A DNA stretch of 64,000 nt from Sclerodactyla briareus (lineage: Eukaryota; Echinodermata; Holothuroidea; Dendrochirotida; Sclerodactylidae). Position numbers and translations under genes: made by a program. Position 1 is the first letter of the stretch, and every line of letters begins with the position of its first letter. The notes beneath the pieces were generated by a model. It saw only the letters and a program-made list of their open reading frames with translations. It had not been told where the DNA came from and made no database searches. Location of the stretch: positions 124,001 to 188,000 of the forward strand of contig JAODTK010002888.1 in assembly GCA_026419785.1 (NCBI GenBank). Reading direction: 5' to 3'. Below, piece after piece: positions 10,290-61,746 of this stretch.

Positions 10290-12015
10290 TTTATAGATAG
10301 TGGCCTATGTTGCCCCTTGACCTTTACCCTGGACCTTCATAAGTCAAACAATGTCTCATGGGTCAATTAAAATTTGTCCAAGTTCGGTCGACACTCCTGT
10401 GACTGTGTGGGGGTCCAAAATGCATTGTTGACACACTGGATAGAGTAATAGGCATAGGCCCAAGTGGGACCTTGGACAAAACATTCTTGAAAAGCCCATA
10501 GGTATGACTATTCCATCATTATGGTCAAGCATCAGCATGCAGGAGGAGAAACATTTTGCTTGATTGCAACGTGATGGGCACTCGGGCCCAAACTGGGACC
10601 TAAGTCCGAAATTCCTTAGTACCCATGAAGGTAGGGTACTAAACCCTCATTCTGACTGAACATCAGCACTGTAGTTGTGCATCAAATTTGTAGAAGCATT
10701 TCGCCTGATTTAACAGATGGGCCTTAGGCCCACATGGGCCTTCATGCAGAAGTTTGCAAACAACCACCAATGGACCATAACAAGGAGGCATTATCATGTA
10801 ACTTTAAGAAAATCAATGGGAACTTGTGGAAAGAGATGGCATTTCAAGTACCATTGGTGTGAATTTTCATAGAATGGCCTCAAGTGTCCGACCTTGGAAT
10901 CAAAAATTCCTGAACACCCCAAAGGTAGGACTGTAGAACAGCCCCTCATTATTAACTCGATATCAGTACTGTGCCCATAAACAAGTAGAGGAGATAGCAG
11001 TTTGCATATTTCCACATATTGGGCCCTCAGGCCCACACTAGGCCCTTGAGTCCCCAATCCCTTGGCACCCTTACGGTACAGCTATTAGACCATCATGGTG
11101 CAAGCATGGTGTCAACTAGATTCGTAGGAGATAAGAGATTTTGAAAGCAGTTCATAAATGGGGCCCTAGGCCCCAAATTCTTGAACATCCCCCTGCCTCT
11201 ACCCAAGACTATTACATGTAAACCTTGAAGAAATCAATTGAAGCTTGTGGGGGGGGGGGGGAGATGCATTTCAAGACCATTGTGTGAAATGTCATAAAAT
11301 GGGCCGTTGGGCCCAAGTCGGACTTGGAACAAAAAAATCCTGCACACCCCAGAGGTATGTCATTTGACCACTATTATGACTGAGCATCAACACTGTGCAA
11401 CTCATTGAAGGATATAACAAGATTGTGCGGTATTTTACATAATGCAGCAACCTTTTGGCCAAACTGGGAACCTGGGGCAGCAAAATTCCTGAACAGCCCC
11501 CTGGCCCTCTACTCAAGGAGCATTACATGTAACTTTGAGAAAAAATTGAAGCTTGTGGGATGAGATGAATTCCAGTACCATTGTGTGAATTTCATAAAAT
11601 GGCCTTCGGGCCCAAGTGGGGCCTTGGATCAACCATTCTTGAACACCCCAAGGTACAGGCTGATAGACCACAATATGACCGAACATCAGCACTGTTGCAA
11701 CAAAATTTGTAGGAGAAGTGTGTTTTGGCAGTTTTCCACTTACTGCCTATCTTCTGCCCCCTTTAATAATTCCATTTGAACTTGACCTTAGGTGGTCAAA
11801 GATGAGCCATCAGTCAATGAGCATTGGTGACCAAGTCTGTTCGAGATTCATCAAAACATGACATTTTGTGGCCCCCAAAGCAAAAGTTTACAGACTGGAT
11901 AGATAGAATGAATGATAAAATGATAGATAGGAGGAGAGATAGAAGGGAGGAATAGTAGATTAGAATTACATGGGCATCACAATAGCTCAACCAACATCCT
12001 TGTTTGAGCTAAAAA
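10290..12015 (+). mobile_element. Tandem-core element A (Helentron/pearl-like architecture)
   Basis: The body is a degenerate tandem array of a unit near 260 bp. Recurring phrases are GGGCCCAAGTGGGACCTTGG, AATTCCTGAACACCCC, GTTAGACCATCATTATGAC, GAGCATCAGCACTGTGCAA and CATTACATGTAACTTTGA. At the right end a TAGA/GATA microsatellite (about 11900-11945) leads into a conserved tail, CATCACAATAGCTCAACC. That tail forms a palindrome: TAGCTCAA at 11983-11990 pairs with TTGAGCTA at 12004-12011. Tandem core, then microsatellite, then 3' hairpin is the layout known for non-autonomous Helentrons such as DINE-1 and the bivalve pearl elements. No protein is encoded. The left end is not defined. Confidence 0.6.
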
Positions 12016-13530
12016 TGGCCAAAATCTCGACTTCAAAACATTTTTTGACCAAAAATGCACCCCCGATCTGAGCCACAAACAATGGTGTTCCTATACTCTC
12101 TTCAATAAGAAAGCTAAACACTAACGCTATATCAAGATTTGAATCTAACTTGGGTGGATGTCAACTATGTTTTGTTCACTGTCCATGCATCCGAGTGGAT
12201 TGCACAGTTGGTGCAGGTTGACCTTCCTCAGCAATGTGGGATCAATCCTGGTCGCGTCAGTACCAAAGGCTCTAAAATGGTACCTCTACTTCTTCGCTGG
12301 TCCACTCAGCTCAAGGTCAGTGAGCAGCCACAAACTAGGGTGGCAATCTGTTGAGTTGTATCTTGCTGCCCCCCCACATTAGAGGTAACCCACCGACCCC
12401 CCGCCAAATATCGAGCATGCCATATTTGATTCTGTGTACATGATGAAGAACTCACAGCTGACAATATCCAGGTCTGCATTCATGCCCTCCACCAATGCTA
12501 GGGGTTGAATAACGTTCGATTCTCTGCTCTGTCTGCAAGATGTGAGCAACTCAAATGGTAGTCTGTGTGGTAATTTCCTTTCTCCAAATCAATTGTGTCC
12601 CTCCCTTCACATTTTTTATATCCCACTTTGGGGTAGCTATGACTCTGTATTTCCGTATCCACTGCTACCAGAGGTGAACATTTTGGAGGGGTTCCATTAG
12701 TGAATGTTCACTTTATAAGTGGGGCCTGCTGAAAAAGAGAATCACGAATTTTCAGAAATTTCAATCAGTTCAATCAGTAGAATTTTGTCAGAGTGCATGC
12801 GTGCCAACGTACTGAGTGTTCAAAGCCAGATCCTGGGCGAAACCAGTTGTACGCGTCCGCCCTCTAGTTTGAACAGATCGCTCATCGGAATAAGGAGTAT
12901 TTGCTAATGGATAGCTGGTGTTTTAAAATATGGAATAACCAGGTGAGAGTTCCCAAAGTACTCCCAAATGTGTGAGGGCAGTATTCGGAGGCAGTGCAAG
13001 GTACTCTCCAAGATAGGAATTTTAGCCTGAATAGTTCTATAGTTCACAGTACACACACCACAGAACACCAGCAACTAGTCTCTTTGGAGTGGGATTGACA
13101 CTTCACCACAACTCCACAACGAAGACAAAGTTTGAGACTATCCCTGTCTGGCAGGGCAAAATTGGTTTGCCCTTCCTGCTTCGCTCAAGACTCTATGGTT
13201 TTTTCCTTCATCAGAAACTGCACGGCTTCTCCACATATGGGCCTGAAAAAAATCTGCTGTTGCTTGACCCGCTCTATTTGGAATTGGAAACATATATCCT
13301 CCATAGAACATTGTTCACTCCACTATATATGTTCAACCCACTTTTAGTGGATGAGGGTAGGTGGGGGCAGGAGCAGGGCAAGGCCCCAAGCGGATCCAGT
13401 CATACTAAGAACGAGGTGGACAACTCGCCCCCACTTGGTGTGAAGAAGAGACAACTCCCTCCGCCACTACACTCAACGTACAGGAAGCCACATCCAAGCT
13501 ACAACTGAGCACCATGGTGCTGTGCTCAAA
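12016..13530. other. Spacer with unassigned open frames
   Basis: Base composition is more balanced here than in the flanking repeats. Both strands have short open stretches (for example 13089-13508 +, 139 codons). I looked for retropepsin, RNase H and integrase signatures and saw none that hold up. It may be diverged retroelement sequence or plain intergenic DNA. Confidence 0.3.
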
Positions 13531-14725
13531 CCGCACAATGTACTGCAAATGAATGTATAATTATGTTATAAATGTGTTCACGATGAGGCCAAGAAAGCAG
13601 TTCAAACAATGGCCTTTTGTGTCCCCCTGCCATGACTTTGGACCTTGATCGTCATATGGCAGAATGTGTCTTAGCAGTCATGAACATACACATTGGGAAT
13701 GGGGGCCCCAGACCCACACTGAGCCTTGGGTCCTAATTCCCGGGGCACCCTGAGAGTATGACATAGATAAAAGATTTGCAGTATTTCATAATGGCCCTAG
13801 GGCCCGAACTGGGCTTAAAATTCCTTAACCTACAATGTGCCCTCTACCACGCCCGGGACCATTAACAGTATTTTGGAGGAAATCAATTGAATCTTGTGGG
13901 AGATGCCTTTCCCAGTACAGTACCAATGGTGAAATTCATGAAATGGGCCCTCGGGCAACATTTCTGAACACCCGGATGGTATGGCTGTTAGACCATCATT
14001 ATGACTGAATGTTGACTGGCCACCAAATTCGTAGATAAGTATGTTTGTAACTAACTCCCGCATGATGTGGCCTCAGGGTCAACACTTGACCTTTTCAACT
14101 CCGAATCCCCCCCCTGGGCACCCTGAAGGTTAAGCTAATAGACCACCATTACGACCGAGCATCAACACTGTGCAACAAAATTAAAGGAGATTTTGCAGTA
14201 TTTCATATGACATGGGCCCTTGGCTCCAAACTGCATGGGCTCTCTCAGCCCCAATTGCCAAACACCCCAATTGCCCGCCACCAAGACCATTAATATGTAA
14301 CTTTGAAACAAAATAAATCGACGCTTGTGGGAAGAGATGCATTTATACATACCAATTGTAAAATTTGCATAGATGGGCCCTTGTGCCCAGTGGGATCCTT
14401 GGACCAAAAATTCCTGAACACCCCCGAGGGCACGGCTGTTAGACCATCATTATGGCTGCACATCAGCACTGTGCAAGAAAACTTTGTATGAGGAGATCAT
14501 CTGAAGTTTGACCATTTGGCCTATATTGCCCCTTAATGACCTCTAACCTTGAACTTCACAAAGCAAACATTTCTCATTGGTCAATCAACATTGTGTCCAA
14601 GTTTTTTGACATCCTCCAGAATAACTGTGTTGGGCCAAGAAGCAAATGTTTACAGACTTGATAGAATCGATAGATAGATGCAATTCTAATAACTCAACAA
14701 GCACAGCTGGTTTGAGCTGACAAAC
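13531..14725 (+). mobile_element. Tandem-core element B
   Basis: Same family and orientation as 10290-12015. It holds about four units marked by GGGCCC, CCTGAACACCC, TTAGACCATCATTATG and CATCAGCACTGTGCAA. The end is complete: GATAGAATCGATAGATAGATG, then a terminal palindrome with AACTCAA (14691-14697) opposite TTGAGCT (14711-14717). The start phrase ATGAGGCCAAGAAAGCAGTT matches the fragment at 8700-9080, which suggests that this lies near the true left part of the element. Confidence 0.6.
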
Positions 14726-25697: not shown

Positions 25698-27565
25698 CAA
25701 TGGGCGGCGATCACGGGGGGGGGGGGGGGGATGGGGGCGAATTGCCCCCAATAGTTGGGGGGGGGGGGACATAATATCAAAATCCCCCCAATATTTGCGA
25801 GAATGGCGAAACACAAATCCATAATCATATGTACCGACGGCAAAACTCCCCCTGTGAGAAGGTAGAAATGCAAAAAAAAAATTCGCTCGCGCGCGCTGTA
25901 TCCTATCCTTTTCCGTTAAAGCATAATACAGTGGGCCCACGTGTACAATAAATTTTTCAGATTCTGGCAAATATGATTTATGTCCATACGTGTCATCCTT
26001 CAAGTGTGGTGAACATTAGGTAGGGCACGAGGAGAATTTGTTTAGGAATTGATTCATGTTCACCCCCCATTCCCCCTCCCCACTTACAACAATGCCAAAG
26101 TCCAACTTGCCATTTTCTTAACACTTTGCACACATGTTTAGTCTACTGATCCCTATGTTCAGTGGCTTTGCCAGCCTGACGTGCGTTTTTAATAAGAGAT
26201 GAAAGCTATATGTAAACGAAAACAACAGGCAGGGGATCGTGCACGTCAGTATGGATCGGTTTACGTGATTGCCGTATGGAAAAATAATACAGGTGCGAAG
26301 CGGGGCGAAACAATTCTGAGACATAACAGTAATTTGGACGAAAAATTTGGCGAGAACTAATCGAAAAAAAAAAATGACAAATGTATGCCTTGACTGGCTC
26401 AATTCCTTGCAAGGAATGCCCGAAAAAATTGCACCACATTTTCTTGACTGATGTTCAAGAAATTTTCAATCTGCGGCAACCTCCAACCCAGTGGAAGGGT
26501 CTCGGAGGAATATCTCTAAGACATGGTATAGCAGGGAATGGAGACCACGATGGAAAAAGAAAGGTAAGGATTAACATCGATTCAGTTTTCGGGCATTTGA
26601 CTTTCAATTTCAGTGATTGCATACTGCAATGAAAGTCCGGGGAAGGGCCGCTCCCTGCAATCTGGGGAGTGGGTGGTTCTTGTAAGACTATCTCTTGTAC
26701 GGTTTGGCGCGAATTGTAAGATAAACGTTTAGACAGTTTATTTCAAGAGTGTTTCTTGAAATGAAATATAATTTCAGAAAATTTATTGTCAATTTTGGGG
26801 ATGTTGCTTACGCAATAAGACATGGGAAGTACCGTTTCCGGCAACCGGGGGATCATTAAGGCTCAAAAATTCTTGTAACCTATACGAGACCACGATTCTG
26901 GCCCAAAGTAGTGAAGGAAAAATAAACATCAATTAGTTCTCCAAGAACGTTTCTTGAATACAAATTTCTGACAATTATTGCCAATTTAGAGACGTTGCTC
27001 ACTGCCATACAGCGAGGTATCGCCATTCCTTCAATCTTAGTGGTCCTTTGAAAAACGAAAATTTTTCCCTTGTCCCTCGCCTCCACTGATGGTGGCCGCT
27101 TGCCCAAATTGTAAAGAATTACACATCGATCAGTTCCCTTCAAGACCGTTCTTTCTAGAAATATGAATTCTGAAATTTATTGCCATTTTTAGGGACGTTT
27201 TTTTGCTTACGTCATACGGTCCATGAAATGCTGTTTCCTTTCATCTGGGGTGTCGGAAACAAAAAATTCTTGTAACCTCTACGCGTCAAACCCCGTCGGT
27301 GGCCCGACTGTAACGGAATAAACATTTATCATTCCTTCAAGATGTTTCTTGAGATAAAAAAAAAGCGGGAATTGTATTGACTATTAGTAGAGATGTTGCT
27401 ACTGCCATATGACCCCAGGCGTGCCCGGTTCCCTGCAATCTGGGAGTCCTGTAAAACTGAAAATTCCGTTTAAAACGCTACGCGCCAACCCATGGGGTGG
27501 CCGCTCTGCTTAGATTGCTACCCTCATATGTCCCCCCCCAATATTCAACACAGTCGCCGCCCCTG
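25698..27565 (+). mobile_element. hAT-like non-autonomous element, copy 1
   Basis: The ends are CAATGGGCGGCGA at the left and CGCCGCCCCTG at the right, an imperfect terminal inverted repeat of the CAGGGGCGGC type. They are flanked by GTAGTAGT (25690-25697) and GTTAGTAGT (27566-27574), an 8-bp target duplication with one extra base. The left part holds runs of G and C with GGGGACATAATATC. The centre has a long unique block shared with 57177-58751, and the right half is a tandem array. No transposase is encoded. The hAT assignment rests on the ends and the 8-bp duplication only. Confidence 0.65.
26560..27510 (+). repeat. Internal tandem array of the hAT-like element
   Basis: Four to five diverged units about 190-200 bp apart. 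Each runs through AATTGTAA(C)GAATAAACAT, CGAT(C)AGTTCC, an AACGTTTCTTGA block, TTATTGCCAATTTTAGGGACG, a TTGCTTAC..CATA block, CCTGCAATCTGGGGG, and CTACGCGCCAACC plus GGTGGCCGC. The same array occurs inverted at 34540-35300 and in short form at 20600-20870, 27930-28100 and 62590-62760. Confidence 0.7.
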
Positions 27566-34441: not shown

Positions 34442-35345
34442 TCAGGGCGGATCAGGATTTGGTGTTAATTTTTTTTTTTTTTTTTTTGGGGGTGGGGAAC
34501 ATTGAGGGAGCACTCTAAGCGGAGCGCCACATGGGTTGACGCGTTAGCGTACAGGGAATTTTTCGTTTTACAGAGCCCCCAGATGCAGGAGGAAACTGGC
34601 ACTTCTGGGGTCATATGGCAGAGTAAAGCAACTATCCCCTAAAATGTCAATAAATTCACGTGTTTCTATGTCAGAAAACATTCTTTGAAGGGGAACTGAT
34701 CAATGTTTTTCCGTACAATTCGGGCCTTCGTCAGTGTGACGAGTAGGGTACGAAAAAAAAAGTTTTACAGAACCCTCTAGATTGCAGGAAACGGCAATTA
34801 CCGGACCGTATGGCATAAGCACACGTCCCTAAAATTGGCAATAAGTTTCAGAATTCTGTTTTCAAGAAACGTCTTGAAGGAACTAATCGATGTTTATTCG
34901 TTACAATTGGGCCAGAATCAGTGGGTTCGTATAGGTACAAGGAACTTTTGAGCCGTACGAATCCCCCAGATTGCCAGAAACGGTACTTCCCATTGATACT
35001 TATGACAGGTAAGCAACATCCCCAAAATTGACAAAAATTCTGAAGTGTAATCTCAAGAACACTATGGAGGGAGGAACTGATCTACGTTTAGTTTCATTAC
35101 AATTCGCGCCACCATCAGTGAGTGTACCGCTAACAAGAAAATTAGTTTTACAGACCACACCCTCCCCCCTCCCAGAGTCAGGGAGCGGCACTTCCGAGAC
35201 TTTGGCAGGAGGTGGCAATCAATGAAAATTGACAGTAAATATCCGAAAAATGATCTATTGTGATCCTTACATTTTCTTCATCGTGGTCTCCATTCTACCA
35301 TAGCCATGTCTTAGGATATTCCATCGAGGACCCTTCCAATTGTCA
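34442..35345 (-). mobile_element. hAT-like family copy inside foldback 1
   Basis: On the minus strand it carries three to four units of the same 190-bp array as 25698-27565, preceded by the family phrase GGTCCTCGATGGAATATCC, an AGACATGG block and a GGAGACCACGATG block. The + strand start, CAGGGCGGATCAGGATTT at 34442, resembles a hAT terminal sequence. The matching opposite end is not clear. Either it inserted into the foldback or it is an original part of the loop. Confidence 0.6.
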
Positions 35346-37652: not shown

Positions 37653-37668
37653 TCGCATGTCCGTCAGA

Positions 37669-38935
37669 TTTTTTATGGTTTTTTAGCAAATATCTTCACT
37701 TTGGAGCAGCCAAACAGAGTGAAATTTTGCACACGGCCTGAATAGTCACAAAACACATAGTATCAAGCTATCAAAATTGTGAAATTTTGGGGCAATGTGA
37801 TATTAAGGCACAAATTACACTGAACTTTCACCATGCAATCAGCCCAAAATTCCTGAAAATATGGATTTTAGGGGTGGAACTCTATTTTTGGCCAAATCTG
37901 AGAATTTTTGGAAATCTGTTCTTTCTTAGCATATATATGGATGGACTGAATGGTTTCAAATTTCAGAACACGGTACAAGGTATCAGAACGAAGGGTTTCC
38001 CAGCATTCTATATGCTGAGGAAAAAAAAATTCTGAATATTTTTGGGGGCAAATGGCTGTTTTCAGACATATTTTGATAAATTTCAACTCTGGGGATTTTC
38101 ATCTTTCAGAGGGTTTTTCCAACTTTTTGACAAGTTTTGACACGGGGTGGAATTGTGGTGATTGGTGCTTGTGCAGCCTGTAGAAGCTACCTTGATGGCC
38201 TTGGATCTGAACAGGCCTACTCACCTGTAGAAGCACTCATAGCCGGACCTGGGCATAAATGTAAATGGGTGACCTATCAAGACATGGTCTAGACTGTGAT
38301 TTTTTATGGTTTTTGGCAAATATCTCCACTTTTGAACAGCCAAACAGAGTAAAATTTGCACACGCCTGAATAGTCACAAAACACATACTATCAAGCTATC
38401 AAAATTGTGAAATTTTGGGGCAATGTAATATTAAGGGCTTTAAGGCACAAATTACACTAAACTTTCACCATGCAATCAGCCCCAAATTCCTGAAAATATG
38501 GATTGTAGGGGGAACTCGATTTTCGGCCAAAATTTGAGAGTTTTTGAAAACTTTCCTGTCGTAGCATATATATGGATAGACTGACTGAATGTTTTCAAAT
38601 TTCAGAACACGGTACAAGGTATCAGAACGAAGGGTTTCCCAGCATTCTATATGCTGAGGAAAAAAAAATTCTGAATATTTTTGGGGGCAAATGGCTGTTT
38701 TCAGACATATTTTGATAATTTCAACTCGGGATTGCCATCTTTATCTTTGCAGAGGGTTTTTCACCTTTTTGCAAGTTTGACACCCCGGTTGGATTGTGGT
38801 GATTAGCCGTTATGCAGCCGGTGAAGCAACCTTGAGGGGCCTGGATGTGAACAGGCCTACTCACCTTGAGAGCACTCAAGCCTGACCTGGGCAGAAATGT
38901 TAAATGGGTGACCTATCAAGACATGGTCCAGACTG
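37669..38935 (+). repeat. Tandem duplication of a ~630-bp unit
   Basis: Copy 1 starts at about 37669 and copy 2 at about 38299. Both begin TTTTTATGGTTTTT(T)AG/GGCAAATATC and end GACCTATCAAGACATGGTC. Long stretches are identical (for example the ACACGGTACAAGGTATCAG region), while other parts differ by substitutions and indels, including a CTTTAAGG insertion near 38437 in copy 2. Neither copy is open for translation. Confidence 0.85.
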
Positions 38936-45245: not shown

Positions 45246-45525
45246 TAAAAAAAACAAAAACATGAGTTGCCCATGGCACGTAGCTCACTCTGCCAATATA
45301 TCCTAACTATAGTATGCTATGCAAGTAAATGTGTGTTTTTGATTAGCGTCCATTTCCATGAGCTCATAACTGAGTTATATTGACAGATCATACTCTCTCG
45401 AGTCATCATAGTTCAAAAAATTCCAATAGACTGTTTCCTTGTCCCACACCTTTGTTACATTCATGTAGAAGAAACATTGTCTTGCAAAACCCTGGTGAAT
45501 AATTGGACGGACCCGCTTGCAACGG

Positions 45526-45580
45526 ACCGACCGACGAGACCACCGGCGTGCGTCGGTCGGTAGGTAGGTAGGTAGATCTG
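45526..45580. repeat. 11-bp perfect hairpin beside a TAGG microsatellite
   Basis: ACCGACCGACG (45526-45536) pairs exactly with CGTCGGTCGGT (45551-45561) around a 14-base loop. The right arm runs straight into GGTAGGTAGGTAGGTAG. The left arm is the complementary ACCG repeat, so the palindrome is probably an inverted microsatellite. Confidence 0.8.
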
Positions 45581-47300: not shown

Positions 47301-48454
47301 TTGTCTGGAAGAGGCGGACTGATAATGAGACCGACTTCTTCTTGCCAATCAAGAAGCAGAAACTGAAAACTTCCAGTGCATCGAGAATGTGACTCCACTA
47401 CAAGTTACTGCATTGAAAGACACACTGTAATCGTCCATGAAGATCAAAATCTCTTTGGCAAAATCTTGATCGGGAATACCACTGATGTCACAGTGACAAG
47501 AAACGAATTATCCCAGTACTTCCCTGCATACCTATACCCATATTCACTTGCACCAATTGAATCTCTGGTAAAGACCAACAAGCAAAACTTATGGTGAGCA
47601 TGGGAAAGGGGGCTTGATCTTGTGACTGAACTTCTATCAAGACAAATTGCTACAGGTAGTGGTTTACACTTGGGGGAATACTATTCTGTGGGTTGTCAAG
47701 CAAATAACTGCAGATACTTATCCAGCAATGAACATCGTGTTGCCGAATGTGCAGCGAGAGCAGCATGTGGCAAAGTGTCCAGTGAATCAAAATTTTTGCC
47801 CTGGTCAAGAGCCTGTTCCTGAGGAACAGTTTCTGTCACTGCCCTGCCCTATGAATCGAATTCCCCCTCAAGGAGTGATTGTTGTCTGCATATTCCACTG
47901 AACTGAAGAGAGTTTGTGACACGTGGCATGGATTGTCATCCCATCTCGAGACTTGATGGAAATGAATCAACCGTCCGCGATGTACCCTCGGCTGAACTAG
48001 GTCATGAGAGGAAGCAGGCTGGGGCTCTCCCGAAATTCTTTTGCATGCCGATCCGATGAACGATTTTTTCATTTCCAATATTTAACGAATGTTCGGCTCT
48101 GATCCTGATGTGATGGACAGCATAAACTAACATACACCTACGACCAGATATTTTGTCCCATTGGGTTCGTGTATGCCTATATTCTTTGAGATCTCTTATG
48201 GATGTGGGACCTCACACCCTTCAATTGTAAGCCATCCTAAAAGAATTATTGCCAAAACAATTCTGTCGCATATCAGCTGAAACCTTTCTCAACAAGTAAA
48301 CGAACAAGAGTGCCAATGGCACAGTAGCCATCCTGCCACTAAATCATTACCAATAGTATGCTATTACAAGTAAATGTGTGTTTTTTTTTAGTGGTCATTC
48401 CAATGTGCATCAGAACTGATTTTGTATTGACATGTCATACTCGCTTGTGAAGGA
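47301..48454. other. Spacer with overlapping open frames
   Basis: Several frames of 60-85 codons lie in succession on the + strand (47376-47597, 47622-47822, 47647-47901) with balanced composition. I could not match them to a family. They might be frameshifted remnants of a mobile-element protein. Confidence 0.3.
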
Positions 48455-50160
48455 TTATTTTTTACCTAAAACTGCTGAACACCCCATATTTACTGGTACT
48501 CAATGGTTTACTGACCAACTTCAATGATCGTCTATCTGTCCCAAAGCAGAAAAAGCAGCTTGACCGTTTGAACAAAATGGCCAAAATTGACCCCTAGATG
48601 ACCTTTGACCTTGAATTCCTGAACACCCCATAAGTACACTTATACGCACCAATTCTTGGTTCTAACGTCCCACAGGAAAAGAAGCCGCTGACCATTTGAA
48701 CAAAATGGCCAAAATTGACCCCTAGATGACCTTTGACCTTGAATTCCTGAACACTCCATATGTATCACTGGTCAATGCTTACACTGACCAACTTTCATGA
48801 GCACCTCCAATCTATTCTTTAGAGAGCAGCTTGACCTTGAACAAAATGGCCAAAATTGACCACTAGATGACCTTTGACCTCTAATTCCTGAACACCACAT
48901 AAAGTACCACTGGTCAATGATCATACTGACCAATTTTTATGATCGTCTGATCTGTCCCATAGAGAAGAAGCCGCTTGACCGTTTGAACAAAATGGCCAAA
49001 ATTGACCCCTAGATGACCTTTGACCTCAAATTCCTGAACACACTGTATGTACCAGTGACCAATGATAATATTGACCAGCTATCATGGTCATCCAATTCAA
49101 TCTCTTGGAGGAGAAACGTTTCGTTTGTTTGACCCAAAAAATGAGCTTTTTGGAAAAAATGACCCCTAGATGACCTTTGACCTCAAATTCCTGAACACCC
49201 CGTATGTAATATTTGTCGCCGATAATACTGACCAAGTTTCATGAGCATCCGATTGAACTGTAGAGAAGAGGCCGCTTGCCCATTGAACAAAGACAAAAAG
49301 TGACCCTAGATGACCTTTGACCTCAAATTCCTGAACACCCTGAATGTACCATTGGTCAATGATAATACTGACCAACTATTACGATCATCCAATTCAATCT
49401 CTTGGAGGAGAAACGTTTCGTTTGTTTGACCCAAAAAATGAGCTTTCTGGCCAAAATGACCCCTAGATGACCTTTGACCTCAAATTCCTGAACACCCCGT
49501 ATGTAATATTTGTCGCCGATAATACTGACCAAGTTTCATGAGCATCCGATTGAACTGTAGGAGAAGAATCCGCTTGTGTTTGAATGAAATGACGCAAAAT
49601 TGACCCCTAGATGACCTTTGACCTCAAATTCCTGAACACCCCGTATGTACCATTGGTCAATGATAATACTGACCAACTATCTCGATCATCCATTCAATCT
49701 GTGGGAAAAGAAGCATTTTACTTGTTTTACCACAACAATCACCTTTTTCGACCAAATGACCCCTAGATGACCTTTGAACTCAAATTCCTGAACACCCCGT
49801 ATGAAACACTTGGTCACCGAGATACGACAAAGTTTCATGAAGTCGATTTGAATGTAGGAGGAGAAGGATTTTGCAGTTTTTCGCAAAATGGCCGAAATTG
49901 ACCTCAGATGACCTTTGACCTTGACTTCCTGGGAAAAGCCGGATGCCCCTTCACTGCAGTGATCATTGTGACCAGTTTATGATCCACCATAGCAATTTTA
50001 ATTCATCTGATAGACAGACAGACAAGGACGACAGACAGACAGACAGAAAGACAGAAAGATAGATAGATGATACGATAGATAGATAGATAGAGTAGATAGA
50101 TAGATAGATATGCAGGATCACAATAGTTCATTCCAGCTCAAGCGGGGTGAGCTGAAAATG
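48455..50160 (+). mobile_element. Tandem-core element D (ten ~146-bp units)
   Basis: A well-preserved array of ten units running GACCCCTAGATGACCTTTG, CTCAAATTCCTGAACACCCC, (C)GTATGTACCATTGGTCAATG, ATAATACTGACCAA(C)T, TCATGA(T/G)CATCC, GAGAAGAAGCCGCTTGACC and GAACAAAATGGCCAAAATTG. Unit starts are 128-157 bp apart. After the last unit come GACA and GATA microsatellites (50030-50110) and the tail GATCACAATAG..GAGCTGAAAATG, the same 3' signature as elements A, B and C. AATTCCTGAACACCCC is shared with the longer units of A and B. Non-coding. Confidence 0.75.
48599..49921. promoter_or_regulatory. Array of DR1 nuclear-receptor motifs
   Basis: The DR1 consensus (AGGTCA, one base, AGGTCA) is present on the minus strand as perfect TGACCTTTGACCT at 48599, 48727, 48868, 49014, 49171, 49311, 49468, 49612 and 49909. 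The copy at 49768 has one mismatch. DR1 is the known binding arrangement for RXR homodimers, HNF4, COUP-TF and PPAR/RXR. The motif's presence is direct observation. Binding or enhancer activity is not shown and may not exist. Confidence 0.6.
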
Positions 50161-50514
50161 GGAGGTGATTGATCCACTGGTTGTGTTTTAATAGCACTAT
50201 GCGCTAAGCTAACAATTATCATGTGGTATTATAGCTGAAACTTGTTGTAACATGTGCTGCACTGAATTAACTCAATTTCGAGTGCTCAAAAAAATATTGA
50301 CAATGTTTTGCACTACCTCTACTACACAGTACTGTATAGTTATACACAGGTCTGCTATTGAATCAATACATCTTGAGTGCTCCAAAAAATAGCAAGATCA
50401 TTTACAAAACGTTCATCAGTAGCATAATGAGTGCCAAAAAAGTTAATAGTGAGTTCTTAAAAATTGTTGATTTAGGCGATTTTCAAGGAATTGTATGGAT
50501 TTGTCACCAAAATA

Positions 50515-52600: not shown

Positions 52601-53923
52601 TGGGACAGCCCGATGTTCATAGGGTTTTTATTATAAGGTCCGTTGTCATAAGGCCTTTTATTCAGAAGGCCTTTTGTTTATAAGGCCCGTTATTAATAAT
52701 GGGCCGAAAAGGTTTTATTCATAAGGTCGATATCATAATAACAATACAAGAAGGTACGATATTCATAATAGTAAACCGGTCCGTTATTCATACTAGTGAA
52801 AAAGGTCCGTTATTATAATAGGAAAAAGGTCCGTTATTCATCGTAGGAAAAAAAGGTCCATTATCAAAAAAGCGTCATATCATAATGGGAAAAAAAAGGT
52901 CCGATATTCATAATAGGAAAAAGGTCTGTTATTCATATTAGGGCAAAGGGTCCGATATCAATAATAGGAAAGAGGTACGTTATTCATAATAGGAAAACAA
53001 TACGGTCGTGGATCTGCCAGGACGCAGTGACAAAAAGGTGCAGTTTAGGGTTTGCATCCTTGACGGACCTCGCAGCGGGTGGAATCATCTGCTTGGCAGG
53101 TAGCATTGAAGAGAAAACATTATGAATTAACTGACCATTTTCGCGATTATGAATAACGACCTCTTTTGCTTATGAATACGAACCTTTTCACTATTATGAA
53201 TACCGGGCCTTTTCTGCGATTAGGAATAAGGCCCAAGTAAATAAAAAAACTAGTGTAACTTGTCATAAATTGCTGAAAGTTTGGGCATGAGGGCCCTTTT
53301 TTTTTTTTTTTTTGCTCTCAGACCGTCAGATACCCATATTTAGTTGTATTCGCGTACAGCAGTTCTGGAATGAGCATGAGGTTCTTTTTTTTCTTTTTTC
53401 CCTGAGGTTATACCCACTAGTGGCCACAAGACATCCCAAATGTCCTACTAGTTGCATGGACATCAGTGTAAAGCTTTTTACTTTAAACCATATTTGGAAG
53501 GAAGTTATCAAGTGAGGGGCAAAAAAAAGAAATTTGACAAATTCTAAAAAGCGTGGGGGCGGGGACGAGAACTGCTTTTTTTTTTTACTTGGCCTCCTAA
53601 CGGACCTCTTTGGCTATTATGAATAACGGTCCCCTTTCGCTTTTATTGAATTACGGGACCATTTTCCCATTATGAATATCGGCCTTTTTCCTATTATGAA
53701 TATCGGACCTTTGTGCTCTGTTTATGAATAAAAGGACTCTTTGATCAAATGAAAAAAGGGCCTTTTTGGTAATTATGAATATCGGGACCTTATGAACAAA
53801 GACCTTTTTTTGAGAATATAGACCTCTTGCGTCATTATGAATAACGGACCCTTTTCCGAAAATTTGCAAGTTATGAATAACGGGCTTCTGAACAAAAGGC
53901 CTATGAAACATCGGGCGGTCCCA
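52601..53923. mobile_element. Foldback element 2 with minisatellite arms
   Basis: Terminal inverted repeats TGGGACAGCCCGATGTTCAT (52601) and its counterpart (53900-53923, RC TGGGACCGCCCGATGTTTCAT) enclose two inverted minisatellite arms. The left arm (52620-53000) has about fourteen units of GGTCCGTTATTCATAATAGG plus an A-run. The right arms (53119-53235 and 53600-53900) carry about fifteen units in reverse complement. Between them lie unique sequence, a poly-T run and TAGTTGTATTCGCGTACAGC. There is no coding potential. The design fits a non-autonomous foldback transposon. Confidence 0.75.

Positions 53924-61675: not shown

Positions 61676-61746
<71 letters not shown>
61676..61746 (+). repeat. 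71-base poly-A tract
   Basis: Uninterrupted A. It may be the 3' tail of a retroposed sequence whose body lies to the left (61495-61675, including a CAGGGCTATAATGGAATTTA phrase), but no gene or LINE motif is visible there. Exact length is doubtful in any assembly. Confidence 0.8.

Follow-up and report, generated by a model that had tools for sequence, protein, structure and literature searches.

Is a perfect nuclear-receptor word that recurs in nearly every unit of a tandem array held there by selection, or does it belong to something larger that carries it? The question is raised by a locus in a 64,000 nt stretch of genomic DNA from the sea cucumber Sclerodactyla briareus (contig JAODTK010002888.1, positions 124,001 to 188,000), termed the window below.

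The tandem array

The array contains the AGGTCA-N-AGGTCA (DR1) pattern. The word TGACCTTTGACCT is found in exact form nine times, at 48599, 48727, 48868, 49014, 49171, 49311, 49468, 49612 and 49909, and a site at 49768–49780 has a single-base variant, TGACCTTTGAACT. The nine exact sites in a ten-unit array had been predicted and are borne out. The predicted single change is also present, but it is in the ninth site in order and not in the tenth. With up to two mismatches, the DR1 word has 17 matches in the window, compared with a mean of 2.07 and a largest value of 9 in 100 dinucleotide shuffles. An extra degenerate unit is situated ahead of the array, at about 48453–48562.

Spacings from one DR1 to the next are 128, 141, 146, 157, 140, 157, 144, 156 and 141 bp, with a mean of 145.6. 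A unit length close to that of one nucleosome had been thought to place the sites in regular register. Since the spacings range from 128 to 157 bp, a strict nucleosome register is ruled out. In animals, moreover, the nucleosome repeat length exceeds 146 bp.

There is also a higher-order period of about 297 bp in the array. Copies one dimer apart are 98% identical over an ungapped 121 bp and 95% over an ungapped 257 bp; units 5 and 7 share 91% and units 4 and 6 share 88% identity, and other pairs share 49–80%. With this period, and with these two pairs of units especially alike, the ten units do not represent ten independent tests of conservation.

The bases next to DR1 had been described as varying freely. 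This is not so: from −7 to −1 and again from +15 to +26, counted relative to the 13-mer, nine or ten of the ten units have the majority base. The near-invariant stretch of the window array extends from about −7 to +26, except for offsets +13 and +14. Other words are repeated as well, AATTCCTGAACAC and CTAGATGACCTTT nine times each and TGACCCCTAGATG seven times.

Structure of the element

The array is bounded by two end modules, and the whole reads on the minus strand (Table 1).

Table 1. Coordinates of the probable Helentron-type element, its parts and a second 3′ module in the window
Feature	Position	Strand	Remarks
Probable non-autonomous Helentron-type element (HINE), whole	48303..50158	-	5′ end of the element at the high coordinate
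5′ (left) module	50111..50158	-	5′ subTIR TTTTCAGCTCACCCCGC, one mismatch from TAGCTCACCC, together with its inverted-repeat partner
Tetranucleotide microsatellite	50009..50110	-	element strand: (TATC)n and (GTCT)n; plus strand: GACA/GATA
Segment between microsatellite and array	49944..50008	-	recurs in other copies
Central array, ten units of 128–157 bp and one degenerate unit	48453..49943	-	dimer period about 297 bp
DR1 words (AGGTCAAAGGTCA), from the first to the last	48599..49921	-	nine exact and one with one change
3′ (right) module	48303..48447	-	recurs in the genome and at 45259–45398 in the window
3′ palindrome GTGCCA-A-TGGCAC	48310..48322	-	7 bp inside the 3′ terminus
3′ subTIR remnant	48325..48337	-	4 mismatches to TAGCTCACCC in the window copy
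Second 3′ module copy in the window	45259..45398	-	78.6% identical

The minus-strand consensus starts with TTTTTAGCTCACCCCAGC..GCTGGGTGAGCTA, followed by the TATC microsatellite, and ends with ..GGGTGAGCTACTGTGCCATTGGCACTCTTGTT. The consensus ends can be read as a 5′ subTIR with its partner inverted repeat and, at the other end, an inversely oriented 3′ subTIR with a palindrome just inside the 3′ end. The sequence TAGCTCACCC is found inverted at both consensus ends; the agreement extends over 10 bp, and by eye the next bases differ. In the window copy the partner of the 5′ subTIR has decayed and shows three mismatches. A stem, CAGCTCA/TGAGCTG, is at 50134–50154, beyond the microsatellite on the right.

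Of 142 sites compared in the right module of the window copy, 8 (5.6%) depart from the consensus, which is that of 16 aligned copies with the window row included. Parts of 49925–50002 recur at 80–89% in 21 of 39 places fetched from the genome. A different microsatellite, of the GACC/GGTA type by eye, is found near 45520–45575 after the second 3′ module, and no array unit was reported there.

The element is apparently non-coding: the open reading frames listed include none of at least 110 aa, counted from stop to stop, within 48303–50158. A Pfam search with 10 of the 35 listed open reading frames found nothing, and both an Rfam search at gathering scores and a tRNA scan were empty.

Dispersed copies

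The genome to which the window belongs (319 Mb, 3171 contigs) was searched with the array unit, as the original prediction had proposed, and 247 matches were obtained when 40 of the 1114 candidates were scored. For the 3′ module there were 223 candidates, and the 40 that were scored yielded 40 matches. Of the 39 right-module matches listed besides the window's own, 27 start no more than one base away from 48303, and left-module matches of at least 40 bases stop at 50153–50163. The 25-bp host flanks outside both ends differ between copies by eye.

Thirty-nine array places were picked among the best unit matches listed, a choice that leaves older copies under-represented. The right module is recognizable in 29 of these places, in some by the terminal 26 bp alone, and the left module in 25 at E values up to 1, 13 of which are at E values up to 0.001.

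Right-end rows (n = 29) consist of 27 copies from 26 of the 29 places together with the two in the window; L049, L063 and L071 were omitted, as their matches stop short of the end. The left-end set represents 20 of the 25 places, with L041, L043, L048, L049 and L055 omitted as short weak matches. The end words that were counted derive from the consensus of the same rows, whose positions were set by hand, and on this basis the palindrome GTGCCAATGGCAC is exact in 11 and has at most one mismatch in 20 of the 29 right-end rows, the window copy being exact. The 3′ subTIR likewise has at most one mismatch in 20 of the 29, a level reached by 4 of 5800 shuffled rows. On the left, the 5′ subTIR is within one mismatch in 17 of 21 rows and the inverted repeat GGGTGAGCTA in 15 of 21.

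Thus the predicted mobile element that spreads DR1-bearing arrays is supported by unit matches elsewhere in the genome and two mapped ends, and it scatters perfect hormone-receptor-type words through the genome. A plain satellite, with tandem units confined to one locus and not carried by a mobile element, would account for the tandem organization, the higher-order dimers and the lack of a long open frame, but not for short arrays on many contigs that are bounded by the same two end modules. It is extremely improbable as an explanation, and in its simple form, with no carrier, it is ruled out by the shared ends.

Outside this genome, the core pattern had one match in a viral contig collection, which led nowhere, and seven in general genome contigs; these are bacterial or archaeal by title and are about the number expected by chance on our own estimate. 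A literature search with TGACCTTTGACCT found no earlier description of the repeat, as judged by title.

Relationship to known HINEs

The end anatomy, the mapped ends and the dispersed copies all point to a Helentron-type identity. The element is very probably a non-autonomous Helentron (HINE, or DINE-1-like rolling-circle transposon) with a satellite-like array as its central cargo. What was a suspected regulatory array thus becomes, with high probability, an identified transposon with mapped ends, and this predicts the places of other copies and their spread.

Cg_HINE of the oyster Crassostrea gigas consists of a 5′ subTIR, an inverted repeat, a GTCY-type microsatellite, a satellite-like array and a right module (PMC7492417). 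The S. briareus element resembles it in having the 5′ subTIR with inverted repeat and GTCY-type microsatellite, the monomer array, and a right module with 3′ subTIR and palindrome. The host genome is a different one, however, and the monomers are likened to Cg170 by description, not letter by letter. Cg_HINE monomers are mostly 140–180 bp (PMC7492417).

DINE-1/HINE elements of Drosophila, a mite and other hosts display subTIRs, a microsatellite, optional central repeats and a 3′ stem-loop, and an inverted repeat beside the 5′ subTIR is a DINE-1 feature (PMC4067079). The S. briareus element shares each of these properties. It differs in the length of the subTIR, which is 10 bp in the consensus as opposed to 12–15 bp in the mite and 13 in DINE-1; the same source gives a subTIR identity of at least 11 bp as the family criterion (PMC4067079). 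The sea urchin Tsp and the bivalve Pearl are cited as DINE-1-like or HINE elements in two sources (PMC4067079, PMC7492417). Pearl central repeats are described there as about 160 bp, and the likeness to the window element is by description only.

The array is an ordinary, well-explained kind of sequence, very probably a HINE central repeat. Helitron_like_N domains (PF14214) have three matches on two contigs of the genome, and no autonomous partner with matching ends was found in two stretches (5.1 kb) beside one of these matches.

From what is known of the family, a Helentron Rep/helicase supplied in trans would recognize the subTIR and the 3′ palindrome and copy the element. Array length would change by unequal exchange or replication slippage, such that units become homogenized in pairs. 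HINE/DINE-1-like elements insert into TT or T-rich targets without a target-site duplication. DR1 would be inherited by the copies as part of a conserved monomer core of about 35–40 bp. It may be clean in the window array because the array is comparatively young or homogenized, and not because the 13-mer alone is selected.

Conservation of DR1 within the unit

Outside the window, 359 units were recovered with a profile built from the window's units. With loci weighted equally, the mean consensus share is 0.904 for the DR1 columns and 0.783 for the whole unit, and thus the predicted lower divergence inside the 13-mer is found relative to the unit average, but not relative to the rest of the core. 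Two 13-mers that overlap DR1, AGATGACCTTTGA and ACCCCTAGATGAC, have shares of 0.920 and 0.913, and the non-overlapping AAATTCCTGAACA has 0.894. In the copies examined, DR1 is therefore not the most conserved block, contrary to what had been proposed.

Counts of intact words give a similar picture. DR1 is intact in 139 of 338 units from the 39 other places. The upstream word TGACCCCTAGATG, which overlaps DR1 by 2 bp, is intact in 150 of 329, and the downstream AAATTCCTGAACA, which is fully separate from DR1, in 126 of 345, i.e. 37% compared with 41% for DR1. A more distant 13-mer is intact in 16 of 342. Offsets −11 to +26 form one conserved block. Consensus shares and intact counts together show DR1 to be part of a conserved core in which it does not stand out. 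It had been argued that the array is either very young or the motif is held; of these, DR1 itself as a held block appears unsupported, since its neighbours in the core are equally kept and no constraint above the immediate surroundings is seen.

The words do not always vary together. Across 38 loci, intactness of DR1 correlates with that of the upstream word (rho 0.56, p 3e-4) and hardly with that of the downstream word (rho 0.10, p 0.54). DR1 is intact in 8 of 9 units at L052, 5 of 9 at L055, 5 of 7 at L058 and 2 of 3 at L075, where the downstream word is intact in none. L051, L062, L068, L069, L070 and L072 have the opposite pattern, with no intact DR1 and some intact downstream words.

The right-end modules, which have no DR1, are 5.6–19.1% off consensus in 16 rows (from 14 of the 29 places and the two window copies), which is about the scale of the 10% loss in the DR1 columns, gaps being counted only in the latter. 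As the right end of the window copy has diverged by 5.6%, about seven changes would be expected in the 130 DR1 positions of the window array; one is seen. Young age or array homogenization, along with subfamily variants, would explain both this excess intactness of DR1 and loci of the L052 type.

Variants of DR1 with a single change (n = 83) comprise 57 substitutions and 26 deletions, 16 of which remove the spacer base. The half-site rule RGKTCA comes from one of two reports on Alu repeats (PMC3252374, PMC1785376). With any spacer allowed, 12 of the 57 substitutions are compatible with the rule, compared with 7 of the 39 that are possible, which is about the chance share. The substitutions in DR1 thus fit receptor tolerance no more than chance.

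DR1 and TGACCT pairs across the genome

Exact DR1 is present 3845 times in the genome and the reversed word 28 times; for AATTCCTGAACAC the numbers are 1770 and 6. Sixty DR1 sites were sampled by going down the first 100 of the 3845 as listed and skipping close neighbours, and they are by choice conditioned on an exact DR1. Sixteen of the 60 match the window unit at E below 1e-5. When DR1 is masked, the sites fall into clusters of 16, 10, 9 and 5 and 20 singletons, and DR1 is accordingly shared by at least four clusters of repeats that cannot be joined through their flanks.

Twenty AATTCCTGAACAC sites were taken in the same manner from the first 100 of 1770. An exact DR1 is at the homologous place in 1 of the 20, and one with up to two mismatches in 3. 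In the reverse check, AATTCCTGAACAC is exact at +15 of DR1 at one of the 60 sites, and three of the 60 have it with up to two mismatches. Exact pairing being rare both ways, neither word is privileged across families. In the array of one other family, family B, with a 309-bp period, there are six homologous DR1 sites; one is exact, the same one that had served to select the place.

Perhaps the core of about 35–40 bp, DR1 included, serves the element itself, e.g. by binding an element or host replication factor, and would be held as a block. The single conserved block from −11 to +26 is consistent with this, as are oyster monomers of otherwise dissimilar clusters that share two conserved segments (PMC7492417). 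However, the loss in the core columns is about as large as in the end modules, and 17 of the 20 AATTCCTGAACAC-anchored sites have three or more mismatches at the DR1 place, so that the core does not stay whole across families. We regard such a role as unlikely.

The genomic excess extends beyond DR1. Pairs of the form TGACCTN{0,8}TGACCT number 42,516, compared with 979 for the reversed pattern. This 43-fold excess of direct repeats is a measurable oddity in its own right. Among the first 100 pairs listed of the 42,516, a spacing of 4 is found in 35, 1 in 17, 5 in 13 and 0 in 12. A spacing of 4 corresponds to a 10-bp period, or about one helical turn, and is twice as common in these 100 as the spacing of 1. 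Pair counts and spacing shares show that the excess is not confined to DR1 but concerns TGACCT direct repeats as a class. Single hexamers are also biased: in the 60 DR1 stretches (21.7 kb), with DR1 excluded, there are 65 TGACCT and 15 AGGTCA as against 1 and 6 for the reversed words, and in the 62 kb of the window outside the element the numbers are 44 and 16 as against 18 and 12. A (TGACCTT)n heptamer microsatellite was considered as the source of most DR1 words and rejected; by eye, few of the 60 sites reach a third heptamer.

Binding by host nuclear receptors might be the reason why several mobile repeat families have, independently of one another, retained or gained TGACCT direct repeats. 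On the sequence data there is little likelihood of this. If true, the more than 40,000 pairs, dispersed by Helentron-type and other repeats, would constitute a reservoir or sink of receptor sites across the genome.

The nuclear-receptor reading

The original prediction considered a role in gene regulation, in which DR1 would be held by selection and receptors of the RXR, HNF4 or COUP-TF type would bind the array, making it an enhancer or a receptor sink. Nine units do carry the exact canonical word, the changed site has a half-site, AGTTCA, that still fits RGKTCA, and DR1 has one change in the window array while the right end has diverged further. The large excess of DR1 over its reversed control and its presence in clusters with unrelated-looking flanks point in the same direction. 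These facts have to be set against others from the same sequences: better-kept 13-mers within the core, substitutions that fit the half-site rule at about the chance share, variants without the spacer base, the preference of TGACCT pairs for spacing 4 over spacing 1, and the family-B array. On balance, selection for receptor binding seems very unlikely, and DR1 as a uniquely held block is ruled out by the intactness of its neighbours, the substitution pattern, the spacing and family B. The sequence evidence does not show that DR1 words are preserved for a receptor role.

Nuclear-receptor DNA-binding domains are encoded in the genome (seven matches on five contigs), and therefore proteins able to bind these words may exist. 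There is also a precedent: Alu repeats carry HNF4 sites or DR2 elements with binding reported from ChIP (PMC3252374, PMC1785376). As with Alu, a mobile element spreads AGGTCA-type direct repeats. Unlike Alu, the element is of another class, and it is known from sequence alone. Because receptor sites are indeed dispersed by Alu elements, a receptor role is still of some interest. A search for literature that joins transposable elements, AGGTCA direct repeats and nuclear receptors in invertebrates found none.

The case carries a caution: where the words next to it are just as intact, the recurrence of a perfect binding-site word through an array is no evidence of selection.

Other repeats in the window

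Degenerate repeats, some about 300 bp apart, are found at 10457–14665 (e.g. TGCCCAGTGGGATCCTTGGACCAAAAATTCCTGAACACCCC at 14384). They look like a relative of the array unit, with the downstream word partly kept and DR1 absent. At 52682–53856 there are arrays of a 24–26-bp unit (AAGGTCCGTTATTCATAATAG..) inverted on both sides of a centre; the arms are 71–88% complementary, and the whole resembles a foldback-type element. A direct tandem duplication of about 630–640 bp, 87% identical, is present at 37667–38935, and an inverted dispersed repeat of about 0.8 kb, 72–73% identical, is at 26492–27539 and 34491–35338. A run of 71 A is at 61676–61746.

Primers used for qPCR of sea-cucumber unigenes without gene names include ACCCCAGATGACCTTTGACC and AATGACCTTTGACCTCCACC (PMC7161275). 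These primers suggest that an echinoderm may have transcripts with a similar core.
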